The notes beneath the pieces were generated by a model. That model was not told the DNA's origin and ran no database searches. It saw nothing but the letters and a program-made list of their open reading frames with translations. Below are positions 15,268 to 48,069 of a DNA stretch of 64,000 bases, piece after piece. The stretch's first letter is position 1, and every line of letters starts with the position of its first letter. A program made the position numbers and the translations under genes. The stretch comes from Medakamo hakoo (Eukaryota > Chlorophyta > Trebouxiophyceae > Coccomyxaceae), in NCBI GenBank assembly GCA_026636295.1, contig CP089451.1:682001-746000 (forward strand), written 5' to 3'.

Positions 15268-15413
15268 GGGCGTGGTCGTGCGGAGTCGTTGAGGGCGGAG
15301 GAGGGCGGGCCTGGTGGGAGGGGGTGGGAGGGCGTGTGGGTGGGCCTGGCGCGCGCATGCCCCCCGCCTGTTTTTCGACTCTCCGACCACCGCCTCCTTC
15401 TCCCTCTCTCTGC

Positions 15414-20138: not shown

Positions 20139-20414
20139 TTTTTTGAGAGAGGCGCGGGGGGTTTCGAGCCACTGCCCACCCGCGAGGGGGCGGGGATGTC
20201 AGGCGATCTGGACGGACCCGGATGTCAAGCAGGAACGGCCGGCCTGAGGCGTGGCGGCGTCATTTGGGGAACGAATGCGGTGACGCACAGCGAAGCAAAC
20301 GAACCCGCCTCTGCTGCCTTATGCATGGATGGCATCCAAAAGCAAGGAGACCGTCGGACGCGCGCACACGCACTCTCACTCATTCTCTACACACTCACAC
20401 AGGAACAGCAGCTC

Positions 20415-26239: not shown

Positions 26240-26680
26240 AAAGGGGGAGAGAGTTTATTTCGTCCGTTTTCCACGTCCATGTCCATTTGTCCTTGGCGTG
26301 AACACGCCGGCGCGCGCGTCAAGGCCCAGCCTCGACGCGCGCCATCGTGTTCTTTTTTTGTCGCCACGTCTCTTTTTTTCTACTCTGAACCTGGTGGGTT
26401 GGTGCCCGTTGAAGAGGCTTTTGTCCGTTGAAGAGAGAGCTGTGAGAGCCGGGAGAGAAGCCGCGCCGCGTCCGCGCGCGTGTGTGAATCACGGCACTGC
26501 GGCGTGTAAGAAGGGAAAAGAAGCCTCAGTCCGTATGTACATTCTTCCGGGGCCACTACACTCTCACTCAGAGCGACGAGTGCGCGCGAGGTCCGGCGGC
26601 TTGTCCTCGCAGCGCGGCGGGACTGTCCTGCGCGCAGCCACGCCGCGGCCCTCCCTAGCCTGCCACACCGCCCGCTTCCC
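26240..26680. other. upstream region of the kinase array
   Basis: Holds the 3' UTR of the cysteine-rich gene and the promoter of kinase copy 1. From about 26609 the sequence is almost the same as the region from 30812 upstream of copy 2, so the core promoter was duplicated with the gene. T7 runs occur near 26352 and 26371. Confidence 0.5.
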
Positions 26681-26695
26681 ATGATCGCCCCGTGA
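26681..26695 (+). promoter_or_regulatory. 4-codon upstream ORF of kinase copy 1
   Basis: ATG ATC GCC CCG TGA. The last A of its stop is the first base of the main ATG (TGATG). The same arrangement is seen upstream of copies 2 and 3. Confidence 0.6.
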
Positions 26696-29600
26696 TGCAG
26701 CCCCAGCAAAGCGCGTCGCAGCCGAGCGCGGCAGCGCCGAGGTGCGTGTTTTCGCGGCGTTTTTTTTTCTCTCCGAGCACAAATTCGGCCCGCCAGTCGA
26801 CCTAGCCAGGCCGAACCACTCATTTTTTTCGTCCCCCTCCCAACCCCCCTCGACTCCACACCAGGTGGTGGACGGTCTCGGCCCGCGCGTGCCTGGCCGT
26901 CGCGTTCGCTGGGTGGGTGGCCACCGTCGCGGGCTACGCCCAACACCAGGAGCGGTTGGCCCTGACCGCCAAGGCGCCCGTGTCGCTAGATGACCCGGAA
27001 CACCTGTTGGATCGGTAAGTTCTATGTTTTTTTGGTGGTTTTGCGACCAACGTCGCCTCGCCCGTCGCGCGCTTTTCCCCCATCCGCCGATCCCACGCCT
27101 CATGCCCGCTCACTTCACCGCACTCAGAATTTCGTCGTGGGCGCTCTTGCACTCGGCCGAGTATTTCGCCAAGTACAGGGCCGCCCTGGACCCGGGCGCC
27201 GGCTTTCAAAAGTTTTGGTGGCTGGCCGGCCTGGAGGCGTTTGGCCTGGCCGTCGGCGTCGCTGCGACCATCTTTCCGTTTTCGCACGCCCGCATCTTGG
27301 CGTCCGGCATCCTGGCCATGGGCCAGGCAGCCGACCTGCCCGAGTCGGCCGTCGAGATCGTGGCCAACTATTTAGACCTGGGCGTGCCGCTGCCGGCCTA
27401 CCGCGTCGCGCAAGTCGTGGGCGGCGTGGTCGTGCCAGCCGCCAACCTCGCGGCGGCCATGGTCCTCGGCTGGGAGCCCGCCGACGTCGGCCCGGACGTC
27501 ACGGCCGTCGACCCGCCCCCGCCCGAGTCCCGGGGCCTGAACCGCCTCCAAGCCTGGGTGGAGCGGGCGTACCTGGGCGGCATGGACCGGGCGCGCGCGC
27601 CCATCCTGGGCGGCCTGGCGGGCGCGCTGTGGGCGGCCACGGCCGTGGGCTGGGCCGGGTACGGCGTCGGCGTGGCGTCGGGCGCCTGGTGGCGGACGCA
27701 CGTGCCACTGTGCGGCATGGCCCTGGCGGCCCAGGTGATTGCCAACGGCGCGTGCACGCTGTCCCTGCTGCCCGCCGCGGAAGGGCGGGCGTCGGGCACC
27801 GCGCTCGCCGCGGTCTCTGCCGCGTTTGCGATCGGCGTGTGGCGGTGGAACCGGGCCTTCGCGCCCGGCCTGTCCCTGCTGGCCGTCCGCGCTGGCGCGA
27901 CACCGCCGCCGGGCTACACCCTGTTCAACGTCGGCGTCATCCTGTGGCTGCTCGTCGCGGCCGCGTGTTTCACCCCGTTTGGCTGCCGCCGTCCGCAGGC
28001 GGGCGACGCGGCCTTCGTCGCCCGGCCGTACCGCGCCTTCCTCTTCCTGGTGGCCGGCCCGCTCGCCCTGTCCGGCGTCCTGCTCATGACGGTGGCCACC
28101 CTGCTGATGGCCACCCCGGAGAGCGAGCGGTCCATGTGGGCCGACCGCCGCGTCTTCCGCCTGTCGGGGGACAGGTACTGGCTGCTGTACACCGTGCGTT
28201 TTTTGACTTTGGTGCAGGGCTGTCAGCGCGCGCGGCAGGAGCGTGGGAGGCACCGTCCCGGAGGGGGTGGGCAGGCACCAACGGCCGTGCGACGTCGCGG
28301 ACGCCCCTTATTTTTACCCCGGAACAGCGTGCCTCTCCCAGGGCCAGGCGCGTTTCTCACCGCCCGCACCTCCACACACACACACACACAACACTCCCAC
28401 AGGTCTTTGTGTATTACGTCATCCTGTTCAAGCAGTGCCACACGTTTGTGCCCATGTGCGTGCCGTGGTGCGGTGGCGCGCACAGGGGTGGTGGTGGCCT
28501 CGCCCGCCCGGGACCCTTTGCCCTCCCTGCGCCTTCCTCACGCACACACCCGTCCCTCGTTCCTCCCTCCGCCAGGATCATGGCCCGGTCCCGGGAGACT
28601 ATGATTGTACGTGCTCTGTGTGTGTGAGGGGGTGTGGTGGGGTGAGGGGTGGGGGTGGGGGTGGTTCCAGTCCAGCCCAGCCCCCACGCCTGGGGATCCT
28701 CGGCGTTTTGCTCCGCTGCCCATCCACCCATTCCTCCACATCCCACCCCCTTCACCCTCCCGTTCACAACAGTACGGGTCGCTGATCGTCGCGCTGGGCA
28801 CCAACTACATGGCCAACCGGTCGTCGGACGCAATCATGAACGTGGGGCTGTGGCTGGTGCTGGCGGGCTTTTGCGCGGAAGCGTGTGTGACGGCGCTCGC
28901 AACGGACTCGCCGGCCGGCGTGCACACGTGGCCCGGCCGCGCGTGGCGCGCGTGCTCCGACCGGGGCGGACCGGCCGGGTCGACGTCCGCACCCCTCCTG
29001 GTCGCGCGCGCGGCCGACCCGGAGTCTGGCGGCCCGCACACCGTGCAGCTGCTGCTCCCAGACGACGCGGCCCCGGTGGCGGCGGCAGCGCCGTCGCCGT
29101 CAAACAGTACCAGCAGCCCCGACATCGTGCTGGAAAAGCTCATCGGGTCTGGGTCCTTTGCGTCTGTTTTCCGGGGCGCGTACGGCGGCACGCCGGTCGC
29201 CATCAAGGTGTTGGCCTCCGCGTCCCCTGCCGCCCAAGCCGCCGCGCGCAAGGAAGCCGCGCTGGCCATGTCGCTCCGCCACCCGTGCGTCCTGCAAACC
29301 TTCGCCGCGCTCGAGGTCGAGGTTGACGGCCCGGCCCTGCTGCTGGCGTCGTCGTCCACCTCCTCCTCCTCCGGCGGCGGCGGCGGCGGCGGCGGCTCCA
29401 GTGGTGAGCCCGCCCGCCCGTACGCGATGCGTGGGGCGGCGGTGGAGGCCGCCGCGGCGACGGCGGCCCTGGCCGAGTTCACGACCGTGCTGCAGGGTGG
29501 CGGCGGTGACGCGCCGCTAGGCTTCCCTCCTGCTGGCGAGGCCACCGGCGCCACCACCACCACCCCGACGTCGGGGTGCGCCCCGTCGCCCTCCATGCCG

Positions 29601-30625
29601 CCGCCGCCGTGGCCGTCCTGCCGCCAGAGCTGGCTCGTCCTGGAGTTGGCGGACCGGGGCACGCTGGACCGTGCCATCCGCGTCGGCACGTTCCGGCGGG
29701 GTGGGGGCGGCGGCGTGGCGAGGGGCGGGACGGCCGCCTCGCCCCGGGCCGCGTCGCCGGCGACGCCCGGCAAAGGTGGCGGCGATGGCGGCAAGACCAC
29801 TAAGCCCGCTTCCGCCGCCGCCGCGCTGCTGGCCACCCTCCACGACATCGCGTCCGGCCTGGCGTACCTCCACGCCGTCGGCATCGTGCACGGCGACGTC
29901 AAGCCAGCCAACGTGCTGTTGCGGTCCCGTGCCCGCGACCGGGCGGGGCGCCGGTTTTCCGCGTGCCTCAGCGATTTTGGCCTGTCCCGCGTCCTCGCGC
30001 CCGGCCCCGGCGGCGGCGACGGCTGCGGCGGTGGCCCCACAACCACCCCCGCCACCCCCGCGCCCACCCATCTACACACGCATACCTTTGGCACGATCTC
30101 CCACACCGCGCCCGAAATGATGCGGGAGGGGCGGTGAGTTCCGAGTCGTCTTCTTGAGGAAGAGAGGAAGAGGGGGCGCGCGACTGTGTCCCTCTGCCCT
30201 CGCTCACCCCTCCCTCCCATCCCATTCCCTCCCCACCTCAACAACACGCAAGCCTGTCCCGTCCCGCCGACTGCTACGCGCTGGGCATGATTCTGTGGGA
30301 AGTGTGGATGGGAACGCCTCCGTTTCACGGCGTGCCGGCCGCGTCCGTGCTGTACAGCGTGGGCATGAAGGCCGAGCGCCCGAGCCTGGACGGGTTCGGC
30401 GACGCGCCGCCCGGGTATGTGGCCCTGATGACGGCGCTGTGGGCGGACGCCATGCACGACCGGCCGACGGCGGCGCAGGCAGCCCGGTGCCTGAAGTCCA
30501 TGCTCGACGCAGAGCTTGGCGTGTGCGGCGGTGGCGGTGGTGGTGGGGTGGACGGGGTGGCGGCGGCGGCGGCGGAGGGGCCGCACCACCACCAGCAGCG
30601 CCAGCCGTCGGCCGGGTCGTCGTGA
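26695..30625 (+). CDS. polytopic membrane TKL kinase, array copy 1
   Basis: Seven exons: 26695-26741, 26865-27014, 27128-28193, 28403-28455, 28576-28606, 28773-30133, 30253-30625; 1,026 residues. Residues ~1-500 hold about 7-9 hydrophobic segments, e.g. ACLAVAFAGWVATVAGY, VVGGVVVPAANLAAAMVLG, LWAATAVGWAGYGVGVA, LALSGVLLMTVATLLMA and VGLWLVLAGFCAEACVTAL. A kinase domain fills ~565-1000: glycine loop IGSGSFASVF, VAIKVL lysine, catalytic loop IVHGDVKPANVLL (HGD, not HRD), LSDFGLSRVL, APEMM. The mix of motifs fits the TKL group. Low-complexity insertions lie after beta-4 and before the helix ahead of the catalytic loop. It lacks two introns found in copy 2. The loop before segment 8 is the most diverged of the set (MWADRRVFRLSGDRYW). 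Function: presumed membrane sensor kinase; stimulus unknown. Confidence 0.85.
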
Positions 30626-30737
30626 GGGCCTCATTTTATTCTATTGGTTTCTGTCTCCCTGAGGTGTATGGAATTCTGCACGTGTCGTGTGTGTGTGTGT
30701 GTGCGCGTAAAGTAAAGCAAAAAGTAAGCAGTCTCCA

Positions 30738-30779
30738 TTCTCTCTCTCTCTCTCTCTCTCATTTTTTTCTCTCTCTCTG
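30738..30779. repeat. CT microsatellite in the 3' flank of kinase copy 1
   Basis: Two (TC)n runs split by ATTTTTTTC. It lies between copies 1 and 2, immediately before the duplicated promoter block. Confidence 0.85.
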
Positions 30780-30878
30780 CGTGGGGTGCCCGACGCCGCC
30801 CCTTTGCAGCCGCGGCGGGACTGTCCTGCGCGCAGCCACGCCGCGGCCCTCCCTAGCCTACCACACCGCCCGCTTCCC

Positions 30879-30893
30879 ATGATTGCCCTGTGA
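30879..30893 (+). promoter_or_regulatory. 4-codon upstream ORF of kinase copy 2
   Basis: ATG ATT GCC CTG TGA, overlapping the main ATG by one base (TGATG). Confidence 0.6.
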
Positions 30894-33800
30894 TGCAGCC
30901 CCAGCAGAGCGCGTCGCAGCCGAGCGCGGCGGCGCCGAGGTGCGTGTTTTTGCGGCGTTTTTTTTTTCTCTCCGAGCACAAATTCGGCCCGCCAGTCGAC
31001 CTAGCCAGTCCAAACCACTCATTTTTTTCGGCCCCCTCCCAACCCCCCTCGACTCCACACCAGGTGGTGGACGGTCTCGGCCCGCGCTTGCCTGGCCGTC
31101 GCGTTCGCTGGGTGGGTGGCCACCGTCGCGGGCTACGCCCAACACCAGGAGCGGTTGGCCCTGACCGCCAAGGCGCCCGTGTCGCTGGATGACCCGGAAC
31201 ATTTGTTGGACCGGTAAGTTTTATTTTTTTTTGGTCGCACGACCGACCTCGCCTCGCATGTCGCGCACGTTTTTACACCCATCCACCACTCCCACGCCTC
31301 ACGCCCGCTCACTTCACCGCACGCAGAATTTCGTCGTGGGCGCTCTTGCACTCGGCCGAGTATTTCGCCAAGTACAGGGCCGCCCTGGACCCGGGCGCCG
31401 GCTTTCAAAAGTTTTGGTGGCTGGCCGGCCTGGAGGCGTTTGGCCTGGCCGTCGGCGTCGCTGCGACGATCTTTCCGTTTTCGCACGCCCGCATCCTGGC
31501 GTCCGGCATCCTGGCCATGGGCCCTGCGCCCGACCTGCCCGAGTCGGCCGTCGAGATCGTGGCGAATTATTTTCGTTTGGGCGTCACCCTGCCATCCTAC
31601 CGCGTCGCGCAGGTCGTCGGCTCGGCGGTCGTCCCCTTCGCCTCCCTCGCCGCGGCCATGGTCCTCGGCTGGAACCCGGCCAGCCCCGGCCCGGACGTGA
31701 CGGCCGTCACCCCGTCCCCGCCTGAAGCCCGGGGCTGCACCCGTGTCCAAGCCTGGATGGAGCGCTTCTACCTGGGCGCGGTCGACAAGGTCAGACGCCA
31801 GGCCCTGGCGGCCTGCGTAGTGGGCCAGTGGATTTGCACGGCCATCGGCATCGTCGGCTACGGCGTCGGCGTCGCGTCTGGCCAGTGGTGGCACACGCAC
31901 GTGCCCCTGGTCGGCGTTGCGCTCGCGGTGCAAGTGGTTGCTAACACGGCGTCGGCTGTGGCGTTGTTGCCGTGCACCGAAGGGCGCGGGTCGGGAACAT
32001 CGCTCGCGGCGCAAGGGTGAGTTTTTGGGCGTGCGGTGGCGGGCGCAATGGCTCGTCCTTTTCTCTCTCCCGCCCCCTCTAACATTTTGGACGCCCTTTT
32101 TCTCTCACTGCTTTACCTCCGCTCATTCGACGCAGCGCTGCGCTGTCTTTATCGATTTGGCGTCTGAACAGAACGTGGAAGGCTGGGCTGTCACTTGTGG
32201 CAGTGCGCACGGGCGTCACGCCGCCCAAGGGATACGTGCTTTTTAATGCGTCCGCCGTCCTGTGGATTGTGTGAGTTTTTTTTTTTTTGGGGGTGGTTGT
32301 GGTGGTGGTGGGCGTCCTGCCACGGCCACCGCGATTCTCCACACGTCACCCCTCTCCTCCCTTTCCCACAGGTGCGCGACGGGTGTGATGACATTCATGG
32401 GCTTCCGTGCCCCACAAGCGGGTGACGAACAGCTGCGCGCATTACCCTACAGAATCGTGGGCTTCCTTGTGGCAGGCCCGATAGAGTTGGCGGGCGTCTT
32501 GACCCTGACGGCGGCCACGCTCCTGACTCGCAACGCCGAAAAAGAGCGCAGAATGTGGGCGGGCGAGACCGCATTCTCCCAGTCTGGAGACCGCTGGTGG
32601 TTGATGTACACGGTAATAACTCTTGAGCGGAATGGACGGGTGGAAGGGGGGTTCGTCCAAACGGACGAGGGCGGAAAGGAGATGGGGAAAGTTTGCGCGC
32701 AGGCTGGGCGGGGGTGAGCGGTTGGGGGCCGCCCCCGTGCTCCCGTTCCTCTCACTTTCGACGCGCCGCCACCCCCTTCTTCCGACCCTCTGAACACACA
32801 TAGCTCGTTGTCTACTACGTCATTGCACCCGAGCCCTTCCACGGCGGCGTGCCCATGTGCGTGCTTTGGGGGAGAGGGTGCGCGTGACGCGCGCGACGTG
32901 CGACCGCCCAGCTTCACTGTCGCCCTTGCTCACGCGCCCCCACGCTCCAACCACACACAGGGTCTTTGCCCGGTCACGAGAGGCCATGGTGGTAAGTAAG
33001 AGAGCGGGGACGGCGGTGGTGTGCCCCCTTATTCGCCGTCCACCACCCTTCCGCACCCCTCTCGCCTGGAAAAAAATCACTCATTCGCCTTCCCCTTCAC
33101 CTGCTCCGGAAAACACACACACGCACACTCCTACAGTACGGCTCCCTCATCGTCGCCCTTGGCGTGAGCTACATGATCAACAAGTCCACCGACCCGGCCG
33201 TCAACGCCGGGCTGTGGATGATCACCGGCGGCTTTTTGGCAGAGGCGTGCTGCGCCGTCCTTGCGACCGATTCCGACCGCGGCGTGCACCGCTACCCGGC
33301 GCGCGCCGCGGCCGCGCTCGCCCGCCTGTTGCCGGGCACCAGGCCGCGCCGCGACCCCGCCGCCAAACCCCTGCTGATCGCGCGCGCGGCCGACCCGGAA
33401 GCGGGCGGCCCGCACACGGTGCGGTTGTTGCTGCCCAAACCCCCGTCGTTGTCCGGCAGCGGCGGCGACCTTTCTTCCGTCTCGGACGTCGTCCTGGAAA
33501 AGCTGATCGGCGCGGGGTCGTTTGCGTCGGTGTTCCGGGCCCGGTACGCGGGCGCTCCATGCGCCGTCAAGGTTTTGTCCGCCACCTCCCCACACCGCCG
33601 CGCTGCGGCCAAGGCGGAAGCCGAGCTCGCCCTGTCCCTCCGCCATCCGTGCGTCTTACAAACCTTTGCCGTCCTGGACGTGAACGTCCCGGCGTCGACG
33701 CTGGCCGACGCCGCCACGGCCGCCAGCAGCTCCAAATCCGCCAGCCCGGACGGCGGCGGCGGCAGCCGGCCACGCCTGGCGGACGGGACATCCACGGCGC

Positions 33801-34727
33801 TGGCCGAGTTTGCGGCCGTCCTGGGCGCGCCTGGGCGAGAGGTTGGGTTGGCGGCGGACTCGCCGCCTTCGCCGACGGCGGCGGCCGCGCCCCAAACCGT
33901 GGCGCAAACCTGGATTGTCCAGCAATTGATGGACAGGGGCACGCTGGAGCACGCCATTCGGAAAGGCGTGTTCCGGCGACCAGGCCACCACCGCCCTGGC
34001 GACGGCGGTAGTGGTGGTGGTGGCGGTGGGAGTGTTGGTGCGAGTGGGCCGTCGGTCAGACACAAGCCGCAGTCGCCGCCCGCACCGACCAAGCGGGCCG
34101 CGGCCGCAACGGCGCGCCTGCCGCCGCCCCGGCTGGCGGCCCCCAACCCGGTGGCAGCCATGCTGGCCACGCTCCACGACGTCGCGTCCGGCCTGGCGTA
34201 CCTCCACAAGGTCGGCATCGTGCACGGCGACTTGAAGAGCGCCAACATCCTGCTGACCTCCCGGTCTGCCGGCGGCATCCCAGGCGGCCGCCCGCCCTTC
34301 GGAGCCGTCATCGCTGACTTTGGCCTGTCCCGCGCGCTCGCCCCGCCGCCGGGTGTCGCCCTTTGCCCCACCGGCCCAGGCCCAGACACGCACATCTTCA
34401 CCCACACGTTTGGCACGGCGGCCTACACCGCCCCTGAAATCGTGCGGGAGGGGCGGCTGTCTTCGCGGGCGGACTGCTACGCCCTGGGCATCCTCCTGTG
34501 GGAGGTGTGGGTCGGGCACCAGCCGTACCGCAACATGCCCCACGCGGCCTCCATCTTTTACCGCGTCGGCGTCGAATGTCGCAGGCCGTCCCTGGAGGGC
34601 TTTGGCGACGCGCCGCCCGGGTATGTGGCCCTGATGACGGCGCTCTGGGCGGACGCCATGCACGACCGGCCGACGGCGGCCGACGCGGCGCGGTGCCTGG
34701 GCGCGATGCTGGAGGCCGAGGTTGGGC

Positions 34728-34760
<33 letters not shown>

Positions 34761-34834
34761 GGGAAGTGGAGTCGGTGGCGGCGGCGCGGCCGGCCTCGGT
34801 GCCGCCGCCGACAAGCGTCATGGCCGAGGAATGA
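30893..34834 (+). CDS. polytopic membrane TKL kinase, array copy 2
   Basis: Eight exons: 30893-30939, 31064-31213, 31327-32016, 32136-32270, 32372-32612, 32804-32856, 32961-32991, 33137-34834; 1,014 residues. Same layout as copy 1. The loop between membrane segments 7 and 8 reads RRMWAGETAFSQSGDRWW, nearly the array consensus. Kinase features: IGAGSFASVF, CAVKVL, IVHGDLKSANILL, IADFGLSRAL, THTFGTAAYTAPEIV, ADCYALGILLWEVW. The whole kinase half is one exon: the intron that copies 1, 3 and 5 have after the APE motif is absent. Its promoter, exons 1-2 and the start of exon 3 nearly match copy 1, whereas the catalytic loop matches copy 3. A poly-Gly run (~12) near the C-terminus is followed by a short tail ending MAEE. 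Confidence 0.86.
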
Positions 34835-35035
34835 GAGAGAAGGAGAGAGAGTGGAATTTGGAGGACCGTTTAGCAACATAAAACGCGGAGTGCGCGTGGT
34901 GTGTGTATTTTTCTCACGGCGGGCTCGCAACCCCTTTGGCTAGGTTGCAGCTCCGTCCTCCACTCGCCTTTTTTGCGGCCGAAAAACGAAAAACACACGC
35001 CGCCCTCGACCGCCGCCCCGCCTGACACACTCGCC

Positions 35036-35050
35036 ATGTCTTTCACGTGA
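35036..35050 (+). promoter_or_regulatory. 4-codon upstream ORF of kinase copy 3
   Basis: ATG TCT TTC ACG TGA, overlapping the main ATG by one base (TGATG). The codons differ from copies 1 and 2 but the geometry is the same. Confidence 0.6.
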
Positions 35051-38000
35051 TGGCTGAGCCCTCGTTGAAAGCGGCGGCATGGCCGCCGACGGCGGTGCCG
35101 CGGTGCGCCGGCAATTGGGGCGGGGGGCGGAGAGCCGCCCGCATTCCGCGCTCGCTCGCCAACCTCTCGGTTCGTGCCGCCGCCTGACCTCCCCCCCCCC
35201 CCCCCGTCCTTCCCACTCCAGGTGGTGGACGCTCGCCACGCGCGCCTTCCTCGTCTTGGCCTTCGCCGGCTGGGTGTCCATCGTTGCCGGCTATGCCCAG
35301 CACCAGGAACGGCTGAACAACACGGCGCGCGGGGCCGTGTCCTTGGACCACCCGGAACAGCTGTTGGACCGGTAAGTTTTATTTATTTTTTTGGTCGCAC
35401 GACCAAAAAACCTCGCCTCGCACACGTCGCGCGCGTTTTGACGCCCATCCACCACTCCCACGCCTCACCCCCGCTCACTTCACCGCACTCAGGATTTCGT
35501 CGTGGGCGCTCTTGCACTCGGCCGAGTATTTCGCCAAGTACAGGGCCGCCCTGGACCCGGGCGCCGGCTTTCAAAAGTTTTACTGGCTGAACGCGCTGGA
35601 AGCCGCCGGCCTGGTCATCGGCGCGGTCGCCACCCTGCCCGACGACCAGCGCGGCCTGCGCTTCCCCACCGCACGCATCCTGGCGTCCGGCATCCTCGCC
35701 ATGGGCCAGGCGCCCGACCTGCCGGAATCCGCGATCGAACTCCTGGCAAACTACAAAAACCTCGCCGTCCCTCTGCCGTCCTACCGCATCGCCCAAGTCG
35801 TCGGCGCGTCCATCGTGCCCTTTGCCAGCCTGGCGGCCGCCATGGTCCTGGGCTGGAACCCGGTGAGCCCAGGCCCGGACGTGACCGCCGTCGACCCGCC
35901 GCCGCCGGAAGCCCGCGGCTTGAACCGGCTGCAGGCCGCCATGGAGCGGGTGTACCTGGGCACCATCGACCGCATCCGCCGGCCCGCCCTCATAGCCTGC
36001 ATCGTCGCCATGTGGATTTGCACGGCCGTCGGGTGGGCGGGCTACGGCGCGGGCGTCGCGTCGGGGAAATGGTGGCACACGCACATCCCGCTGTGCGCGA
36101 TCGCTTTGGCCACGCAAGTCCTGGCCAACTCCGCGTGCGTCTTTGCCCTGCTGCCGGCCGTGGAAGGGCGCGGCGCCGGGACGGCGCTGGCGGCGACAGG
36201 GTAAGAGTGTTTTTTGGATGGGACGGGGTGGGTGGGTGGGTGGTGGGAGGTGACCCCGACCCCAACCAAACCCTCCGCCCTGTCTCACGTCCACTCCCCC
36301 CGTCGCGCACACCGCCATTTGGACAGGGCTGCGTTGGCGCTCAACATCTGGCGCATCAACAGGTCATGGCAGGGCGGCCTGACCCTCGTGGCCGTGCGCC
36401 TCGGCATCCAGCCCCCGCCGCACTTCGTCCTCTACAACGCCGCCACGATCCTGTGGCTGCTCATGGCCGCGGGCGTCATGACATTCATGGGCTTCAGGCG
36501 CCCGCAGGCCGAGGATGGGGCCCTGGTGGCGCTGCCGTACCGCGTCATCATCTTCACGGTGGCCGGGCCCGTCGCGCTGGCGGGCGTCATTCTGTGCACC
36601 GCCGCCACGCTGGTCTCGACGTCGCAGGAGCAAGAACGGCGCATGTGGTTCGGCGAGACCTATTTTTCTCAGTCCGGCGATCGCTGGTGGTTGATGTACA
36701 CGGTGAGGTTGCGTGGGAGGGCGGGAAATGGCGGCATGGGAGGGCGGGAAACGGCAGCATGGGAGGGCGGGAAACGGCGGCATGGGAGGGCGGGAAACGG
36801 CGGCATGGGAGGGCGGGAAACGGCGGGCGGGACGCGGGCAAACAAGAGAGGAGGGTTGGGAAACACGTTGGGTGCGGTGGGCGGTCGCAAACGTAGCGCT
36901 CCCTGCCCCCTGCCTCACCCCTCCCGCTCCCACCCACCCGCACAGCTTGTCGTCTACTACACGATCGCGCCCAAGCCGTTCCACACCTTTTGCCCGATGT
37001 GCGTGCGTGTGGCGGTGGTTTTGAGGCAGGAAGACGGGTTTGGAACCCACCGCAGCAGGTCTTTTTGTTTTGCATCCTCACGCCCCACCCCCTCTCCAAC
37101 ACTGACAGGGTCCTGGCCCGGTCGCGGGAGACCATGGTGGTGCGTACAGGCTTTTGCTATTGAGTTTTGAACGAGTCTTTTTGTTTGCGTCCGCGCGGAC
37201 GCACGATCCCTCACCCGCATGAAACACGCACATCCACCCACCCACCCACCCACACCACACACCTCCCTCAGTACGGCTCCCTCATCGTCGCGCTCGGCAC
37301 GAACTACATGGTCAACAAGAGCACAAACGGCGCTGTCAACGCCGGGCTGTGGATGATCCTGGCCGGCTTTTTGATCGAGGCGGTCATGAGCGTGCTGGCG
37401 ACGGACTCGCCGGCCGGCGTGCACACCTGGCCGCGCCGGGCCGCGCGCGCGCTCGCCGCGCCCTGCACCTCCCGCCGCCTCGGCCCCGGCCCCAAGCCCC
37501 TGCTGGTCGCGCGCGCCGCCGACCCGGAAGCCGGCGGCCCGCACACCGTCCGCCTGCTCGTCCCCAAGCTCGGCGCCGACGCCGGCCGCCCGCCGGCGCC
37601 GGCACCCGGCGACGTCGTCCTCCACCAGCTCATCGGCACTGGGTCGTTCGCGTCCGTCTTCAAGGCGTCCTACGCGGGCGCGCCCGTCGCCGTGAAAGTC
37701 CTGTCGTCCGCGTCGCCCGCCGCGCAGGCCGCCGCCCGCAAGGAAGCCCAACTCGCCCTGTCCCTCCGCCACCCGTGCGTCCTCCAAACGTTTGCGGTGT
37801 TGGACGTGCAAGTCCCAGCGTCCGCCCTGGCCGACGCCACGTCCAGCGCCGTCGCCTCCACGTCCGCCAGCCCGGGTGCGACGCAGGCGGCCTTGGAAGC
37901 CACGTCCGCCGCGCTGGCCGAGTTTGCGGCCGTCCTCCAAGCCGCGCCCGACGGCGGCCCCGACCTGCTGGAGGGTGGCGGTGGTCGTGGTGGGGGCGAC

Positions 38001-39165
38001 GACCCGGCCCGGTCGCCGCCGCCTTCCGGGTCGGACGCCGTCGCGTCCGCCACCGCTGCCGACACGCCGCCCACACCCACGGTGTCACAGGTCTGGATTG
38101 TCCAGCAATTCATGGACAGGGGCACGCTGGAGCACGCCATCCGGAAAGGCGTGTTCCGGCGACGCGGCGTCCGCCGCGGCAGCCCCGGCGATCGCGGCGG
38201 CGGCGGCAGCGGCGGGAGTGGTGGTGGGAGTGGGAGTGCGCCGTCGGCGGGCACCGACCGGCCGTACGCCGCCCAGGCGGGGCTGTCGCCCTCGCCGACC
38301 GGCAACGTGCTGGCGTTGGCACCGCCGTCGGCAAAGCAGCGTCGCCCGTCCGCGGCCACCAACCCGGTCGCTGCCCTGCTGGCCACGCTCCACGACATCG
38401 CGTCCGGCCTGGCGTACCTCCACAAGGTCGGCATCGTGCACGGCGATTTGAAGAGCGCCAACATTCTGCTGACCTCCCGGTCTGCCGGCGGCATCCCAGG
38501 CGGCCGCCCGCCCTTCGGAGCCGTCATCGCTGACTTTGGCCTGTCCCGCGCGCTCGCCCCGCCGCCGGGTGAGGCGCTGCCGACCGCGGGACCAGGCCCG
38601 GACACGCACATCTTCACCCACACGTTTGGAACTGCGGCCTACACCGCCCCTGAAATCGTGCGCGAAGGTGAGCATTGACGGGTTTGAGTGGCGGACCGCC
38701 TGACATTGTTTTTTTTTTATTCCACCCATCCAAGGCCGTCACGCCGACACCTCCAAAACCACCCCTCCCCCGCAAAAATCAGGCCGCCTCTCCTCCCGGT
38801 CCGACGTCTACGCTCTGGGCCTGCTCATGTGGGAGATGTGGACGGGCGTGGTTCCCTTTGCCGGCATGCCAGCCGCGGCAGTCTTCTTCGCGGTCGGCAT
38901 GGTCGGGCGGCGCCCGTCCTTGGACGAGTTCGGCGACGCGCCGCCGGGGTACACAGACCTGATGGTGCGCCTGTGGTCCGACGCGGCGGGCGAGCGGCCG
39001 ACTGCGGCGGACGCGGCGCAGAGGTTGAAGGCCCTGCTGGACGCGGAGTTGGGCGGCGGCGGCGGTTGCGGAGAGCCGGGGCCGCCGCCTGGAGGAGGAG
39101 AAGCTGGCGCACCAGCCCGTCCGCCCTCGACACCTCGCCCGCCGGCGACCGCCGCGGAGGAGTGA
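35050..39165 (+). CDS. polytopic membrane TKL kinase, array copy 3
   Basis: Eight exons: 35050-35102, 35222-35371, 35493-36200, 36327-36702, 36946-36998, 37109-37139, 37272-38667, 38783-39165; 1,049 residues, the longest copy. Membrane segments include RAFLVLAFAGWVSIVAGYA, VVGASIVPFASLAAAMVLG, IVAMWICTAVGWAGYGAGVA and GLWMILAGFLIEAVMSVLA. Kinase: IGTGSFASVF, VAVKVL, IVHGDLKSANILL, IADFGLSRAL, TAPEIV. The last intron sits 4 nt upstream of the equivalent intron in copies 1 and 5 and in a different phase (1 versus 2). An unspliced alternative start at 35079 stays open through intron 1, but the spliced form matches the other copies. Intron 4 holds a 23-bp minisatellite. Exon 3 begins with ~85 nt identical to copies 1 and 2. 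Confidence 0.86.
36712..36826. repeat. 23-bp minisatellite (5 units) in an intron of kinase copy 3
   Basis: Five units of CATGGGAGGGCGGGAAACGG plus CGG, the first slightly changed; units start at 36712, 36735, 36758, 36781 and 36804. The transcribed strand has repeated GGG runs, so G-quadruplex formation is possible. It begins 10 nt after the 5' splice site. Confidence 0.92.
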
Positions 39166-39399
39166 AAGAGGACGGGCGCAAGTCCAGGGGCGGTATTTTG
39201 TAAGGGCGGCCTCTTCTGTATCATTTTGTGTCGTCTTTGCGCCATGCTGAAGGAGAGGAAGAAAAAAACAACAACAGCGGGTGGTGTTTTTTTTTTCTGC
39301 TTCCACACGCGCGCACCGGAATCGGCTGGCCGTGCCGGCAGGGACACACGCCGCGCTTTTTTTTGGACTCACCCCGCGCCGCACCCTCCCACCCTTCCC

Positions 39400-39414
39400 A
39401 TGCCGCACGCATAG
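39400..39414 (+). promoter_or_regulatory. 4-codon upstream ORF of kinase copy 4
   Basis: ATG CCG CAC GCA TAG, ending four bases before the main ATG at 39419. Confidence 0.55.
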
Positions 39415-39418
39415 AGAC

Positions 39419-42400
39419 ATGAAGGCCGGAGACAGCGGCGTAGTGGAGGAGGCACGGCAGGTGGATGCTCCGCGGTGCGTGGGCGGCGCAATTTGTGTCT
39501 CGGGCCCGCGCGGGTGTTAGGACGCCGCTGGCCAAAGGAACGCGGCGACCGCGGCGGCTGGGGGGGGGGGGCGGGGCCGACCCACCCTCACGCCCCCTGT
39601 CTCGTCTCCCTCTCACGCACCCACCCACCCACACAAACGCCCGCGCAGGGCGTGGACCTTCGCCGCCCGCCTGTTCCTCGCTCTCGCCTTCACCGGCTGG
39701 GTGTCCCTGGTCGCGGGCCAGGCCAACCAGCAGGAGCTGCTGGCCAACACGGCCGCGGCGAATGTGTCGCTGGCCGACCCGGGCCCGCTGCTCGACCGGT
39801 GCGTGCGCGCGCTTTTTTTTCCTTGTTTTTTTTATTCCGCAGGTCACCCCGTGCGCCCGCCCCTCACGTCCGAGACCCCGCCCCCGCGCCACACCACCCA
39901 CCAGCATTGCGTCCTTTGCCCTCTTGCATGATGCGACGTACTTTGCCAAGTACGCGTCCAAGCTCGACCCGCGGGACCCGCGCGCCTTCAACAAGTTCTG
40001 GTGGCTGGCCTCGCTGGAGGCGGCCGGGCTGCTGATCGGCCTGGCGGGCACGCTGTGGGACCGCGGCGCCGGCCGCCCGCGCTACCCGACCGCCCGCATC
40101 CTGGCGTCCGCGATTCTGGCCCTGTCCCAGACGCCCGACGGGCCGGAAGCCGCCGTGGAGGTGCTGAGCAACTATTCCCGCCTCGGCGTCCGGCTGCCCG
40201 CGTACCGCGTGGCCGAAGTCATCGGCTCGGCGGTCGTGCCCCTGGCCAACCTGGGCGCAGCCATGGTCCTGGGCTGGGATCCCGCGCGGCCGTACGGGCC
40301 GGACGTGACGGCGGTCGTCGTCCCGGACGCGCGCACGCGCGGCGTGCCGGCCTGGCAGGCCTGGCTGGAGCGGACGTACCTCGGGACGGTCGACGCGGTG
40401 CGCCGCCCCGCCCTCGTCACCCTGGCCGCCGCGCAGTGGGCGTGCACGGCCGTCGGCTGGGCGGGTTATGGCGTCGGCGTCGCGTCGGGCCAGTGGTGGC
40501 GGACGCACATTCCGTTGTGCGGTGCGTTGTCTTTTTTTGTGCCGTCGCCTTTTTTTCCCTCCCTCCAGCCGTGGTCGTGGCTGCACCGTCCTGTCTCTCA
40601 CACCTCTCCATCCACCGCACCCCAGGCATTGCCCTCGCCGTCCAAGTCCTGGCCAATTTGGCGCTGGCGGCTGCGCTGGACCCGCGGACGCAAGGGCGCG
40701 CGGGCGGGACGGCCCAGGCGGCGCAGGGGTGAGTTGCCTTTTGTTTCGCCTTTGGTGCGCCGACCTTTGGTGCGTTCAACTGGCGCGCCGACCCGCGCGC
40801 TCTGACGCCCTTTTCCTACCCTTTTACATCAACAGCACGAGTTTGCTCCTTGGCATCTGGCGCATCAACCGTTCCTGGGCGGCAGGAGTGACTCTGGTGG
40901 CCGTGCGGACCGGCGTGAAGCCTCCGCCGGGGTACATTTTGTTCAACGCGGGCGTCATCGCCTGGATCGGGTGCGTCGCCTTTGTGATGACCCTCCTGGG
41001 GACTCGCGCCGCCCAGCCGGGCGACGTGGACTTCCGCGGCACGCCCTACCGCGCGGTCGCCTTCTTCATTGGCGGGCCCGTCGGGCTGGCTGGCGTCCTG
41101 CTCCTCACAATTTCGACAATGCTGTCGTCCAACGACGAAAAAGAGCGCAGGATGTGGGCGGGGGAAACCTATTTCTCTCAGTCCGGCGACCGCTGGTGGC
41201 TGATGTACACGGTAAGAAAATGGAGGGGAGGGGATGGGCGGACGGGGGTTTGGCGGCGGGCGGAAGAAAAAAAGGGATGGAAAGGTTTTTGCGTGGGTGG
41301 ACCCGCGCCTGTGCCCCTCACTTTCGACCTACCCGCCCCTCTCTCGACCCTCGCGCACGCTCAGATCGTCGTCTACTATGTCATCGCGGTCAAACCGTTC
41401 TTTGACGGCTCGCCTATGTGAGTGTTTTGTTTTTCTTTCTTGGAGGGTGCGAAACAAGGTCTTGGACTCGCGCGCTGTTTTTTTTTTCCATCCGCCCCAT
41501 GTCGGCCGCGACCCTGCACCACTCGCCATGCCGCCTCACCGCTCCATTGCGTCCGCCCCAAACGCAGGGTCTTCGTCCGCTCGCGCGAAGCGACGATGTA
41601 CGGCAAGCTGACGGTGGCGCTGGGGACAAACTACATGGTGAACAAGAGCACGTCCGTGCCCGTCAACGCCGGGCTGTGGCTCATCTGTGGTGGCTTTGTG
41701 CTGGAGGCGTGCATGGGCGCGCTCGCAAACGATTCGCGCGGCGGGGCGCGGGCGTGGCGCGCGCTGGCCAGCCCCTGCGCGGGTTCGAGGCGGCGCGCGC
41801 CCGCCCGGCCCGGCGGCGTCCGCGGCTTCCCGGGCCTGGCCCTCGTCGCCAGCGCAGCAGGTGCGGGCGACGACCCAGAAGCCGGCGGCAGCGGCGACGC
41901 CCGCCACACCGTGCGCCTGCTTGTCCCGTCGTCGTCGTCGTCGTCCGCGTCCAGCGGCAGCGCCCAGAGCGGGGGTCGGCCGCCGCCCCGCGGCCGGCGC
42001 GCGGACGACGTCGTCCTGGAGCGCCTCATCGGCACGGGCTCCTTTTCCTCCGTCTTCAAAGCCACCTACGCCGGCGCGCCCGTGGCGGTCAAGGTGTTGT
42101 CCGCCGCGTCCCAGGCCGCCCAAGCCGCCGCGCGGGAGGAGGCCCGCCTGGCCCTGTCGCTGCGCCACCCGTGCGTCCTGCAGACCTTCGCCATCCTGGA
42201 AGTGGAAGTGGATGGGCCGACCCTCTTGGCGTCCACGACGACCAGCAGCGGCAGCAACGGACTGGGCACAGGCGCCGCACCGCCGCAGCCGTCCGCCCTG
42301 GCGTCGGCGGCGCTGGCCGAGTTTGCGACCATCCTCCAACCGCCGCGGCCGGGCGTGCGCGGCGGCGGCGGCGGCGGTGACGACGACGGCGGGGCGGCCG

Positions 42401-43459
42401 CCTTGCCCCCGACCGACGGCGGCGGGACGTCGTCGGCCTCGGCCTCGGCCTCCGTCCGCCGCCAGAGCTGGCTCATCCAGGAGTTGTGCGACCGGGGGAC
42501 GCTGGACCGCGCCATCCGCAACGGCGTGTTCAGGCGAGATGGTGGTGGGAGCGAGTACGTGGGCGCGCCCAGCAGGGCGTCGTCCGGCGGCGGGCGCGGC
42601 GGGCGCGGCAGCCAGCCGTCGACCGAGTGGGCGCCAGCCAAGGATGGCGCGGCCTCGGGCGCTGCCGCGCCACCACCCGGCCCCGCCACCGCCACCGCCG
42701 CGCTCCTGGCCACCCTCCACGACGTCGCGTCCGCCTTAGCCTACCTCCACCGCTTCGGCATCATCCACGGCGACTTGAAGCCCGCCAACATTCTGCTGCG
42801 CAGCCGCGCCAAGGACAGGGCGGGGCGGCGCGTGTCCGCGTGCGTCGCCGACTTTGGCCTGTCCCGCATTCTGGGCGTCGGCCCCGCGTCCACGCCCAGC
42901 CACCTGCACACCCACACGTTTGGGACGGTCGCCTACAGCGCGCCCGAGCTGATGAAGGAGGGCAGGCTGGCCCGGGCGGCGGACTGCTACGCCCTGGGCA
43001 TGGTCGCATGGGAGATCTGGGCGGGCGTGCCGCCGCACGCGGGCGTGCCGCCGGCCTCCATCTTTTACACGGTGGGCATTGAGGGGCGTCGACCATCGCT
43101 GGACGGGTTTGAGTCGGCGCCGCCCGGGTGAGTCGTTTTTTTTTGTTCCCTGCACAGGCTGCTGCTGGAGGTGAAGCGGGCGGACGGGGCGGGCACCACG
43201 CCCGCCTGGGGCTCTCTGTCCTTTCTCTCTCGACCACTCACTCACACGACCGCACGCGCGCACCATTCCTCGCACCACACTCACCCCTCTGACCAGGTAC
43301 GTCGACCTGATGACGGCCCTGTGGGCGGACGCGATGCACGAGCGGCCAACGGCAGCGGAAGCGGCGCGGAGGCTGAAGGCTATGCTGGACGCGGAGCTGG
43401 CGAAAGGCAGCAGCAGCCCGCCGCCGTCGCCGCGGCGGCCGGCGACGCCACGGCCGTGA
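39419..43459 (+). CDS. polytopic membrane TKL kinase, array copy 4
   Basis: Eight exons: 39419-39474, 39649-39798, 39905-40521, 40626-40728, 40836-41211, 41365-41417, 41568-43127, 43297-43459; 1,025 residues. Membrane part as in the others (LFLALAFTGWVSLVAGQ, AEVIGSAVVPLANLGAAMVLG, TAVGWAGYGVGVASG); loop RRMWAGETYFSQSGDRWW. Kinase: IGTGSFSSVF, VAVKVL, IIHGDLKPANILL, VADFGLSRIL, SAPELM, ADCYALGMVAWEIWAG. Two introns are unique to this copy: one after HIPLCG in the membrane region and one after SAPPG near the C-terminus; three used by other copies are missing. With copy 5 it forms the more diverged half of the array (NQQELLANTAAANVSLADPG shared in outline). Confidence 0.86.
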
Positions 43460-43674
43460 GAAGGGAAGGAGGAGGACAGCATGTCCGTGTAAAGGAAGAA
43501 GGCAGACAAAAAGGGGCGACGGCGGCTGGAGGGAGGGTGAGCCCATCACATAGGCGTGGGTTGGAGACCGCGCGCAATCATGACGACATATCAGAACCGC
43601 GTTTTCGCCGCGAAAACTTTTTTTTTCCTCGCAAAAGGGGGGCCGCTGCGCCCACACTCCCCCGCACGCCGACC

Positions 43675-43686
43675 ATGCTGTTCTAA
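43675..43686 (+). promoter_or_regulatory. 3-codon upstream ORF of kinase copy 5
   Basis: ATG CTG TTC TAA, ending four bases before the main ATG at 43691, the same gap as in copy 4. Confidence 0.55.
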
Positions 43687-43690
43687 AGCC

Positions 43691-46600
43691 ATGAAGCCCG
43701 GCAAGCCTGGCACCGCGGCGGCGGCGCCACCGCCAGGCGAGGCGCCACGGTACGTGCGCGGAGGCTGCGGGCGCTACCGATTCTCCAACCAAACCTTTGC
43801 CTAGCCACCGCCACGACACGAAGAGAGCGACGCTCTCTTGCCCCTCCCGCTGCCGGCGCCACCGGGACGGCGCGCCTCCCCGCCACCAGCGGCCGCCACC
43901 AGCGAGGCGTGGCCGCGGCCGAGGAAACCCACACCCAAGCACACACGCATGCGTCCCTCCCTTTCTTCTTGGGACCCCACACCACCCGAAAAAAAAAAAA
44001 AAACAGGGCCTGGGTGTTGGCCGCGCGCGCGTGCCTGGCCGCCGCGTTTGCCGGCTGGATCGCCCTCACGGCCGGGTACGCCAACCACCAGGAACTGCTG
44101 GCGAACACGGCGCATGGGAATGTGTCGCTGGCGGACCCTGGGCCGCTGCTGGACCGGTGCGTCTCTTTTATTTTCCGCGCGGCCGACCCAGCCGACCACA
44201 CACGCACACGCCGCGGCCGTGTGTGTGTTTTCCATCCGTCGCCCCCCCCCCCCCCCCTCACGCGCCCACGCCCGCCCCCTCCACACCACACCCAGCATTT
44301 CGAGCTGGAGCCTGCTTCATGACGCCGAGTACTTTGCCCGGTACGCGGCCACGCTGGACCCGCGCAACCCGCGGGCCTTCCAAAAGTTTTGGGTGCTGAG
44401 CGCGGTCGAGGTCGTCGGCCTGGGCGCCGGCCTCGCCGCCACCACGTGGCCGACGCGCTGGCCGCCCGCCCGCCTCCTGGCGTCCGCACTGCTGTGCGTC
44501 GCCCAGGCGGCCGAAGCCCCCGAAGCCGCCGTCGAAACGGTGTACAACTATCGCGCGCGCGGCGTGCGGCTGCCCGCGTACCGGGTTGCCACCATCATCG
44601 GGTCCGCGGTCGTGCCGCTCGCCAACCTGGGCGCCGCCATGGTGCTGGGGTGGGACCCGGTCGGGCCGGGCCCCGACGCGGTGGCGGTCGCCGTCCCGGA
44701 CCCGCGGGACCGGGGCGTGCCGCCCTGGCAGGCCTGGCTGGAGCGGACCTACCTGGGCATGGACCGCGTCCGCCGCCGCGTCCTGTTGTCGCTCGCCTGC
44801 TTTCAGTGGGTGGCCACGGCCGTCGGCTTCACGGGCTACGCCATTGGCGTCGGCTCGGGGACGTGGTGGCGCACGCACGTCCCGCTGTGCGGCACGGCGC
44901 TCTTCGCGCAGGCGGTCGCCAACCTGGCGTTTGCGGCCGCGCTGGACCGGCGGACGCGGGGCCGGGCGACGGGCGTCGCCCAAGCCGCGCAAGGGTGAGC
45001 TGTGTCGATCGACGGGGAATGGGGTGGGGCAGCCTGTGCACTGCGAGGCCGGGGTGGACGGGCCGCAGGGGGGGGGGGGCGCGTCCTCCCTTCCGGGACC
45101 CTCTCCCATCGCGCCCTCAACCTCTCAACCCCACCCCCCGAAAAAAATTGTGCGCATCCACACCAGCTGCGCTTTGGTCATCACTCTGTGGCGTGTGAAC
45201 CGTTCCTGGGCTGCAGGACTCACCATGGTGGCTATTCGTGCCGGCGCTCACCCTCCGCCGGGCTACATTTGCTGGAATGCCGGCGCCATTGCGTTCGTGG
45301 CGTGCGTTTTGGTGTGGCTTCGAGGCGGGGCGCGAGGGAAAAACCTCGCCAGGCTTGACGCAGCAAAAAGCGCCCATGCATCCCCTCTCACGCCCGGTCC
45401 ACTTTCCCCTCAACGCACAGCTCCTCCGGCATGGCCATGCACACGATGGGCACGCGCGCGCCCCAAAAGGGCGACACGGAGTTCAGGGGCACGTTTTACC
45501 GGGCCGCGTCGCTGTTTGTCGCCGCGCCGCTCGCGCTGGCGGGGAACTTGTTGCTCACCATCGCCACCCTGGTGTTTTCGACGGCGGAGTCGGAGCGGCG
45601 GATGTGGGCTGGCGAGCGCGCGTACTCCCAATCGGGCGACAGATGGTGGCTCGTGTACTCTGTGCGTTGAAAGAGTTCTTTTTTGTGGGACGGTGTCGTG
45701 GTCGTCCCTCCGGTGTCGACCCGTCCGCACCCGGCTCTGCGGGCCACTCCCACCCCCCTCACGCCCTTGCCCCACCATCCACCACCTCCCCCCCTCCTCC
45801 TCCCTCGGCCCCAGGTCACGATCTACACCCTGCTGGCCTCCAAGCCCTTCCTGCACGGCTCCCCCCTCGTCTTCGCCCGGTCGCGGGAAGCCATCATCTT
45901 TGGCAATGTCATCTCCGCCCTGGGGTCGACCTATATGGTCGCCACGTCGAACAACAGCGCCGTGAACGCGGCGATCTGGCTGTTGGACTCCGGGCTGTTG
46001 ACGGAGGCGTTCCTGACGGCCGCGGCGCACGACGGGCCGGGCGGGGTGCGGCAGGCCGTGGCGCGCGCGGTGGGTGGCTGGCGACGGCGCGCGCGCGCCG
46101 GTGCGCGCGCCGCCGCCGCCGCCCCGCGCCTGGCCCTCGTCGCGAGCGCGGCGGCGCTCCCCGCCGCCGCCGACCCGGAAGGCGGGCGTGCGGGCGCTGC
46201 GAGTGAAGCCGGCGGAAGGCGCACGGTCCGCCTGCTCCTGCCGCCGCCGCGGCCGTCGTCGACCCGCCTCCTCCAAGGCCGCCCGTCGCCCTCGCCCGCC
46301 GACGACGTGGTGTTGCACCGCCTCATCGGCACGGGCAGCTTCGCCTCCGTCTTCAGGGGCACGTACGGCGGCGGCGCCGTGGCGGTCAAAGTCCTGTGCG
46401 CGGCGTCGCCCGAAACCCAGGCGGCGGCCCGGGAGGAGGCCCGCCTGGCCCTGTCGCTGCGCCACCCGTGCGTCCTGCAAACCTTCGCCGTCCTGGACGT
46501 GGACGTGGACGGCCTGGCCCTGCTGGCCGACTCGGCGGCCGCCACCGCCGCCGCCAGCAGCGACGGCGGCAGCAGCCGCGGCCCTCCCGCACCCCTCCCG

Positions 46601-47732
46601 CCTGCCCCAGCTGCCGGCACGACCGCGGCCCTGGCTGAGTTTGCGGCCGTGCTGGGCGCGACGCGGTCCGGCGGCCGCGGAGAAGGTGGGCACGACCTGT
46701 ACGACCCGCTGGGCGGGGCGCCGTCCCTGTCGCCGTCCCCGTCCGCAGGCTTTTTTGACCGGACGACGTCGGACGAGACGGCCGTGACGGGGCTGTCGTC
46801 GTCGGCCGCGTCTGGCGGCGCACTGTCCGTGCTGCCGCCCCCGCCCGCCCGCCGCCAGACCTGGATTGTGACGGAGCTGGGGTGCGGCACGCTCGATCGC
46901 GCCATTTGCACGGGCGCCTTTGACCGCGGTGCCGGCGTGGCGGCGGTGGCAGCCGCCGGGCGGGGCAAGGCGTCGACGCCCGGGCCGCCGCCGTCACCGC
47001 GCGCTGCGCTGCTGGCCACGCTCCACGACATCGCGTCCGGCCTGGCCTACCTCCACGCCGTCGGCATCGTGCACGGCGACGTCAAGCCGGCCAACGTGCT
47101 GTTGCGGCCCCGCGTCCGCGACCGGGCGGGGCGCCGCTTCTCCGCGTGCCTCAGCGACTTTGGCCTGTCCCGCGTCCTCGCGCCCGGCGCCGGCGGCGGC
47201 CCGCCGTCCGCGCCGCCGCCCACCCACACCTTCACGCACACGTTTGGGACGGCCGTGTACGTCTCTCCCGAAATGATGAAGGAAGGCCGGTGCGTTTGCT
47301 TGGCGGCGTCGTGGAGAAGAAGCAACGGCTGGGCGGACGACGGCGGCGGGGAGGCTGCGCCTCCACTCCACCCTCCCGCCCGCCCTCCCCCCTCCCCTTC
47401 ATCCCCTCCCCCTCTGTCCGCCTCCCGCCCCTCTCAAAAAACACATCAACAGCCTGTCGCGTGCGTCCGACTGCTACGCCCTCGCCATGGTCATGTGGGA
47501 GGGCTGGGCGGGCGTGCCGCCCTACGAACACCTGCCGGCCGCGGCCGTGTTTTGGGCGGTCGGTGTGAATGGGTCGCGGCCCGACCTGGACGGCTTCGGC
47601 GGCGCGCCCGCCGGGTTCGTGGACCTCATGACGGCCTTGTGGGACGACGACCCGTCCGCCCGGCCGACGGCGGCCGAAGCGGCCGGGCGCCTGGCCGCCA
47701 TGCTGGACGCCGAGCTCGGGCAGCGGCGTTGA
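43691..47732 (+). CDS. polytopic membrane TKL kinase, array copy 5
   Basis: Seven exons: 43691-43749, 44007-44156, 44296-44994, 45167-45301, 45421-45661, 45815-47289, 47453-47732; 1,012 residues. Membrane segments include ACLAAAFAGWIALTAGYA, IIGSAVVPLANLGAAMVLG and ATAVGFTGYAIGVGSG. Loop RRMWAGERAYSQSGDRWW. The two small exons found near membrane segment 8 in other copies are fused here with the kinase exon (SPLVFARSREAIIFGN). Kinase: IGTGSFASVF, VAVKVL, IVHGDVKPANVLL, LSDFGLSRVL, SPEMM (APE changed to SPE). Its catalytic loop and following ~100 nt nearly match copy 1, although the membrane half is closest to copy 4. The kinase N-lobe insertion is long and Ser/Gly/Pro-rich. Confidence 0.86.

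Positions 47733-48069
<337 letters not shown>

Follow-up and report, generated by a model that had tools for sequence, protein, structure and literature searches.

Proteins that join a multi-pass membrane region to a tyrosine kinase-like (TKL) kinase have been published from oomycetes, amoebozoans and choanoflagellates. In Phytophthora infestans, 99 kinases were reported to carry between one and nine predicted membrane segments, and all of these are TKL (PMC3019232). Van den Hoogen and others described 17 GPCR-TKLs, in which a G protein-coupled receptor (GPCR) domain precedes the kinase, from the same species, and had no evidence of them outside oomycetes and amoebozoans (PMC5784254). A 2025 survey found GPCR-TKL/Ks in choanoflagellates and GPCR-TKs in choanoflagellates and sponges, and considers that the fusions likely arose repeatedly, none being functionally characterised to its authors' knowledge; the Viridiplantae in its proteome set include Chlorella variabilis and Coccomyxa, and no green-algal fusions are reported in the part of the survey at hand (PMC12716839). 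Ostreococcus tauri was credited with 13 TKLs and no receptor-like kinases (PMC4143559). A literature search gave no description of polytopic TKLs in green algae among the titles and openings of abstracts that were listed. Here we analyse a tandem array of five genes, U1 to U5, which encode polytopic TKL kinases in the trebouxiophyte green alga Medakamo hakoo. The array lies in a window of 64,000 nucleotides on contig C8 (C8:682001-746000 of a genome of 15,638,232 bases in 16 contigs; 66-82% GC in 2-kb windows). The published genome comprises 16 nuclear contigs that total 15.8 Mb at 72.7% GC, and the word 'kinase' is absent from the main text of its description (PMC9871001).

The array proteins resemble the GPCR-TKLs (GPCR-bigrams) of oomycetes, amoebozoans and choanoflagellates in possessing a polytopic domain followed by a C-terminal TKL, and several such genes per genome are present in oomycetes as well. 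However, the domain of those proteins is a GPCR-like seven-transmembrane (7TM) one, whereas the array proteins have 8-12 hydrophobic segments and match no 7TM family. Their kinase domain is similar to plant CTR1/Raf-like and MLK-type TKLs, with CTR1 as the closest match in PDB. CTR1 itself is soluble and is recruited to a polytopic receptor that is a separate protein, whereas the M. hakoo proteins hold membrane part and kinase in one chain, with HGD instead of HRD and long kinase inserts. Plant receptor kinases are commonly described as having one helix and an ectodomain. Single-helix receptor-like kinases, including apparent single-helix TKLs of M. hakoo at C8:811-815k and C2:294k (by hydropathy or by eye), are also membrane-bound and of TKL type, but combine one helix with an ectodomain, while the array proteins have many helices and no sizeable ectodomain. 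The plant RLK/Pelle definition, a single helix plus an extracellular domain, does not describe proteins with 8-12 segments and short loops. The best works-like analogue is found among bacterial SLC5/STAC histidine kinases such as the transceptor CbrA of Pseudomonas, where a many-helix module is fused to a kinase; CbrA consists of an SLC5 transporter domain and a histidine kinase, neither of which is recognised in the array proteins.

We consider it rather likely that the five genes encode integral-membrane TKL kinases whose helix bundle senses and switches the cytosolic kinase directly. The original prediction, made from the sequence of the window, had called the proteins an apparently undescribed receptor-kinase type. 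This does not stand as worded because fusions from oomycetes, amoebozoans and choanoflagellates are published (PMC3019232, PMC5784254, PMC12716839), and the novelty seems to lie in the membrane module and in its occurrence in a green alga.

Organization of the gene array

The array occupies positions 26695-47732 of the window, all on the plus strand, and the distances from start to start are 4198, 4157, 4369 and 4272 bp from U1 to U5. A five-fold tandem repeat is displayed by a 24-kb self-comparison. Five intact genes on one strand, 4.2-4.4 kb apart, had been predicted to expand by tandem duplication; the coordinates were exact, all five models are complete and the duplication is borne out.

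26695-30625, plus strand: U1, 7 exons, 1026 aa; exons 26695-26741, 26865-27014, 27128-28193, 28403-28455, 28576-28606, 28773-30133, 30253-30622, then TGA
30893-34834, plus strand: U2, 8 exons, 1014 aa; exons 30893-30939, 31064-31213, 31327-32016, 32136-32270, 32372-32612, 32804-32856, 32961-32991, 33137-34831, then TGA
35050-39165, plus strand: U3, 8 exons, 1049 aa, exon 1 tentative; exons 35050-35102, 35222-35371, 35493-36200, 36327-36702, 36946-36998, 37109-37139, 37272-38667, 38783-39162, then TGA
39419-43459, plus strand: U4, 8 exons, 1025 aa, exon 1 tentative; exons 39419-39474, 39649-39798, 39905-40521, 40626-40728, 40836-41211, 41365-41417, 41568-43127, 43297-43456, then TGA
43691-47732, plus strand: U5, 7 exons, 1012 aa, exon 1 tentative with an alternative in-frame ATG at 43580; exons 43691-43749, 44007-44156, 44296-44994, 45167-45301, 45421-45661, 45815-47289, 47453-47729, then TGA

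Coding frames were set by translated comparison between the copies, and splicing was modelled comparatively with GT/AG pairs that preserved both the reading frame and the conserved peptide. All 33 introns of the five final models are GT-AG (101-257 nt), internal stops are absent, and every model ends in TGA, giving proteins of 1012-1049 aa. The alternative frames of each spliced coding sequence contain 12-22 stops in one and 4-8 in the other. Introns common to several copies interrupt the same residues, and some introns are missing from some copies. U1 and U2 have almost the same DNA sequence in exon 1; the first exons of U3-U5 were picked for ...PR at the exon junction, and in U3, where two candidates were present, a PR/W junction decided the choice.

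The membrane region

Each copy is composed of a short N-terminal tail, a membrane region of ~485 residues, a linker and a C-terminal kinase. Hydrophobic segments, called by Kyte-Doolittle hydropathy with 19 residues and a threshold of at least 1.25, number 10, 9, 8, 8 and 10 before the kinase in U1-U5, with one of the ten in U5 situated past the membrane region. Two relatives on contig C7 (see below) have 12 apiece. The alignment average of these seven members displays eight strong hydrophobic segments (1.5 or more) and three weaker ones. We read the membrane region as about 10-12 transmembrane helices; an even number would place the N and C ends on one side. No loop in the membrane alignment exceeds 58 residues in the window copies. 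With no sizeable ectodomain, input could be received by the membrane bundle, by its loops or by the linker.

Pairwise identity of the membrane regions of U1-U5 is 51-71% over 479-496 aligned positions (10 pairs). An alignment of the seven members has 79 invariant columns, among them the motif WWxTHxPL and polar positions such as E86, H247, Q258, N297, R298 and D404; several of the invariant polar positions are located in or near helices.

Known families were searched for in several collections. Against Pfam the seven members gave no significant membrane family, the best match being TraX below the cut-off (E 0.072), and full-length U2 and the membrane parts of U4 and U5 had no membrane match better than FAXC_N (E 0.13). 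NCBIfam matched none of the seven, and neither an SLC5 transporter domain nor a histidine kinase was found in Pfam or NCBIfam. In a profile search of PDB, the five-row profile gave no match and the seven-row profile a single chance match (E 4.9). Two short peptide patterns retrieved 345 stretches from prokaryotic genome contigs and 39 from viral contigs, with no relatives among either; two such patterns per scan could miss distant prokaryotic or viral relatives. Because green algae are sparsely represented in these collections, absence from them does not make the membrane region unique to M. hakoo. The membrane module appears to be new and does not look like a recognisable 7TM, although it might still conceal a distant 7TM core. 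The earlier view of an unrecognised polytopic region thus agrees with Pfam, NCBIfam, PDB and the prokaryotic and viral contigs, while two of its figures need adjustment: the length is nearer 485 than ~450 residues, and 7-9 segments become 8-10 in U1-U5 and 12 in the C7 pair.

The kinase domain and its fusion to the membrane region

PF07714 and PF00069 match above the cut-off in all five window copies. All seven members have the Gly loop, the VAIK-type Lys, the alpha-C Glu, HGDxKxxN and DFG. The APE pattern was matched in five of eight proteins, counting a further gene on contig C5 (see below), and not in U1-U3, where TAPE is nevertheless visible. Compared with PDB, the kinase of U2, the one member used and with two inserts cut out, has CTR1 (two rows; 3ppz, 5.5e-24) and MLK4 (4.2e-22) as its closest matches, followed from rank 4 by a Src-Abl ancestor tyrosine kinase, B-Raf (1.4e-19) and MAP3K9, among the best 60 of 2140 matches. 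A TKL of CTR1/Raf/MLK-like type is the best reading of the class. HGD in place of HRD denotes non-RD kinases. Other TKLs of the genome also have HGD or HAD, and HGD therefore marks a wider group rather than the array.

26865-28913, plus strand: membrane-region coding span of U1, exons 2-5 and the start of exon 6, by hydropathy and alignment
28773-30133, plus strand: fusion exon of U1, an open frame that also holds most of a weaker preceding hydrophobic segment
33137-34831, 37272-38667, 41568-43127 and 45815-47289, plus strand: fusion exons of U2-U5, which match the U1 exon 28773-30133
29121-30622, plus strand: TKL kinase of U1, with LIGSGSFASVF as the Gly loop, VAIK, ARKEA, HGDVKPAN and DFGLS, matching PF07714 and PF00069, and with long low-complexity inserts before the catalytic loop

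A single exon in each of the five copies encodes everything from the last strong hydrophobic segment through the linker to a point in the kinase beyond the APE region, and the Pfam kinase match falls within it. A genome search with the U3 membrane region revealed two more tandem genes, C7a and C7b, at C7:660322-668135; over the membrane alignment each of them has 32% identity with U3. C7a (C7:660265-663681) encodes the membrane region and the kinase up to its end within a single uninterrupted frame of 1139 codons; C7b has the same order of parts once three short introns are spliced out. Because of the exon common to both parts in five of five copies and the single frame of C7a, membrane region and kinase form, short of transcripts, one protein. 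The fusion of a polytopic region to a TKL-like kinase, as originally predicted, is therefore a true one.

Related genes in the genome and phylogenetic analysis

The recognised family comprises seven members in the genome, U1-U5 and the C7 pair, with an eighth possible. A weak match of the U3 membrane region on contig C1 (E 0.035) gave no match in the membrane-profile screen. The gene at C5:918516-922058 has seven hydrophobic segments and a kinase 50% identical over query positions 94-276, in which the alpha-C pattern was not matched. It was not found by the membrane profile among 995 open reading frames (the window and loci L060-L069), and hhalign of its membrane part against the family gave a weak match with 8.4% probability (E 0.004, score 30.0), compared with 1.12% (score 22.5) for the best of up to 30 shuffles and 0.07% for the reversed control. 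It is a TKL kinase whose multi-segment membrane region is either of another kind or highly diverged, and is a possible candidate for the eighth member. The protein rows of the C7 pair and of C5 start at an arbitrary residue rather than at a mapped start codon.

A kinase tree was constructed from 17 kinases hand-picked from the examined loci, using 423 of 845 columns. The seven members form one clade (100/99), as do the C7 pair (100/99) and the array (100/99). The C5 kinase is sister to the seven (89/88, a branch not starred). U1 and U4 are weakly grouped (81/84) and the inner order of the array is poorly fixed. The row from contig C2 fills 45% of the columns, and one row stands on a long branch.

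By eye, related TKLs of the genome appear to bear single-helix ectodomains and other front ends, which makes it plausible that the front end is the input module. TKL kinases with varied front ends occur at C9:586000-595500 (L063), one of which we take by eye to be GAF-like; another front end among the related TKLs is presumably ACT-like, also by eye. Four PF07714 matches are arrayed on the minus strand at C8:801500-821300 (L061, L062), where two frames resemble membrane-bound TKLs with few hydrophobic peaks and one appears CDK-like by eye.

Probable gene conversion between the copies

Identity between U1 and U2 is patchy: it reaches 96-98% over the initial four coding windows and is 41-84% after them. 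Around the catalytic loop, U2 and U3 are 91-97% and U1 and U5 91-95% identical in coding windows.

26609-27746, plus strand: U1/U2 tract, matches 30806-31945, 87.2% over 1149 columns
34136-34446, plus strand: U2/U3 catalytic-loop tract, against 38352-38662, 93.6% identical
29815-30017, plus strand: U1/U5 catalytic-loop tract, against 46997-47200, 94.1% identical

Gene conversion is the simplest reading of such patchy identity, and the tracts common to U1/U2, U2/U3 and U1/U5 probably arose by it.

Proposed function and alternative explanations

In the mechanism that we propose, the ligand of a bundle of ~10-12 helices would be a small or lipophilic molecule or an ion, or else the bundle would transport a nutrient; the resulting conformational change would be passed straight to the cytosolic kinase and switch it, so that the protein would act as a transceptor in one polypeptide. 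The bundle may also sense the membrane itself. Duplication and gene conversion would let the membrane parts diverge while keeping the catalytic core alike in some pairs. The sequences themselves show the fusion, the polytopic region, the kinase motifs, the tandem duplication, a ratio of nonsynonymous to synonymous substitutions below 1 in membrane region and kinase, and the tracts common to several copies. The membrane bundle as the sensing part is what we infer from this architecture, and the integral-membrane sensor of the original prediction is reasonable in the same sense.

Several points weigh against this mechanism. Ligand, transport, localisation, expression and kinase activity are all predicted in it, and the non-RD motif means that activity cannot be assumed from motifs alone. 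The helix number is based on hydropathy and shifts from 8 to 12 with the cut-off. AlphaFold models had a mean predicted local distance difference test score (pLDDT) of 45.7 for U1 exon 3 (355 aa, 9 rows) and 33.6 for the last exon of U2 with the kinase (565 aa, 5 rows); since the known kinase fold also scored low, these values suggest that alignment depth was limiting and are uninformative on the membrane fold. The ratio of nonsynonymous to synonymous substitutions (dN/dS), which is below 1 in both parts and as such counts in favour of the mechanism, is 0.28-0.59 in the membrane region (dS 0.59-1.00) and 0.38-0.54 in the kinase (dS 0.61-0.89) over 10 pairs each, but these values are simple Nei-Gojobori estimates from a GC-rich genome with the conversion tracts left in.

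The membrane part might instead be a working transporter, channel or membrane enzyme, with the kinase regulating it or its neighbours, as TRPM7 provides a precedent for a membrane part regulated by its own kinase. The conserved polar residues in or near helices would suit such a protein, and so presumably would the length and 12-segment pattern of the C7 pair, which we take to resemble carriers in size. We nevertheless hold this to be unlikely, for Pfam, NCBIfam and PDB reveal no family of transporters, channels or enzymes in the membrane region and, unlike in many carriers, its two halves showed no sign of repeating each other (hhalign probability 0.05-0.16% at five cut points, 0.13% for the reversed control).

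There is little to recommend a GPCR-TKL of the type found in oomycetes, amoebozoans and choanoflagellates, despite the identical order of a polytopic region and a C-terminal TKL: no 7TM family in Pfam was found for any of the seven members at E up to 10 (HMMER filters drop most matches above 0.1), hydrophobic segments number 8-12 rather than seven, and no GPCR in PDB matched the membrane profile. That no ligand is known would suit a mere membrane anchor without sensing, but ~485 residues, 79 invariant columns over seven members and dN/dS of 0.28-0.59 exceed an anchor's needs, and we regard this as very improbable. The genes are closely spaced and their models are built on genomic sequence, yet an artefact, in which neighbouring membrane-protein and kinase genes are read as one or a repeat is mis-assembled, is practically negligible given the single-frame fusion of C7a, the fusion exon in all five window copies, membrane parts too different for an assembly repeat (51-71% identical) and a coverage of 246.8x reported for the published assembly (PMC9871001).

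If the many-helix module does drive a CTR1/Raf-like kinase directly, it would denote a second receptor-kinase design in the green lineage, comparable to the fusions of membrane regions with TKLs in oomycetes, amoebozoans and choanoflagellates. M. hakoo, whose genome is tiny and holds seven recognised copies, is convenient for testing the idea of a membrane-driven kinase. More tentatively, and as a possibility that we would not put high, a previously unrecognised green-algal domain family of ~12 helices, fused to TKLs, may work as a transceptor kinase in a single chain. These proteins would then be the first class of polytopic receptor kinases from green algae and plants, and duplication together with gene conversion would have diversified them within tandem arrays.

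Neighboring genes

Pfam matches were found in four of the 20 flanking reading frames tested, all four being ordinary neighbours.

9451-11079, minus strand: ATG16/WD40 protein (Pfam)
13063-15513, minus strand: prolyl oligopeptidase family (S9) protein (Pfam)
17601-20198, minus strand: DUF1604/G-patch/Surp protein (Pfam)
23986-25056, plus strand: class I/II aminotransferase (Pfam)

Directly upstream of the array, 25606-25977 on the plus strand encodes a putative secreted Cys-rich protein with a signal-peptide-like start by eye and no Pfam match at E 0.001. It was considered as a linked ligand, which is not supported, since its relatives are distributed on C14, C10, C8:343k and, weakly, C5, with none beside the C7 pair. 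Right after U5, positions 47894-48001 of the window hold a short tandem array with a 6-base period, its self-matches lying at offsets that are multiples of 6.

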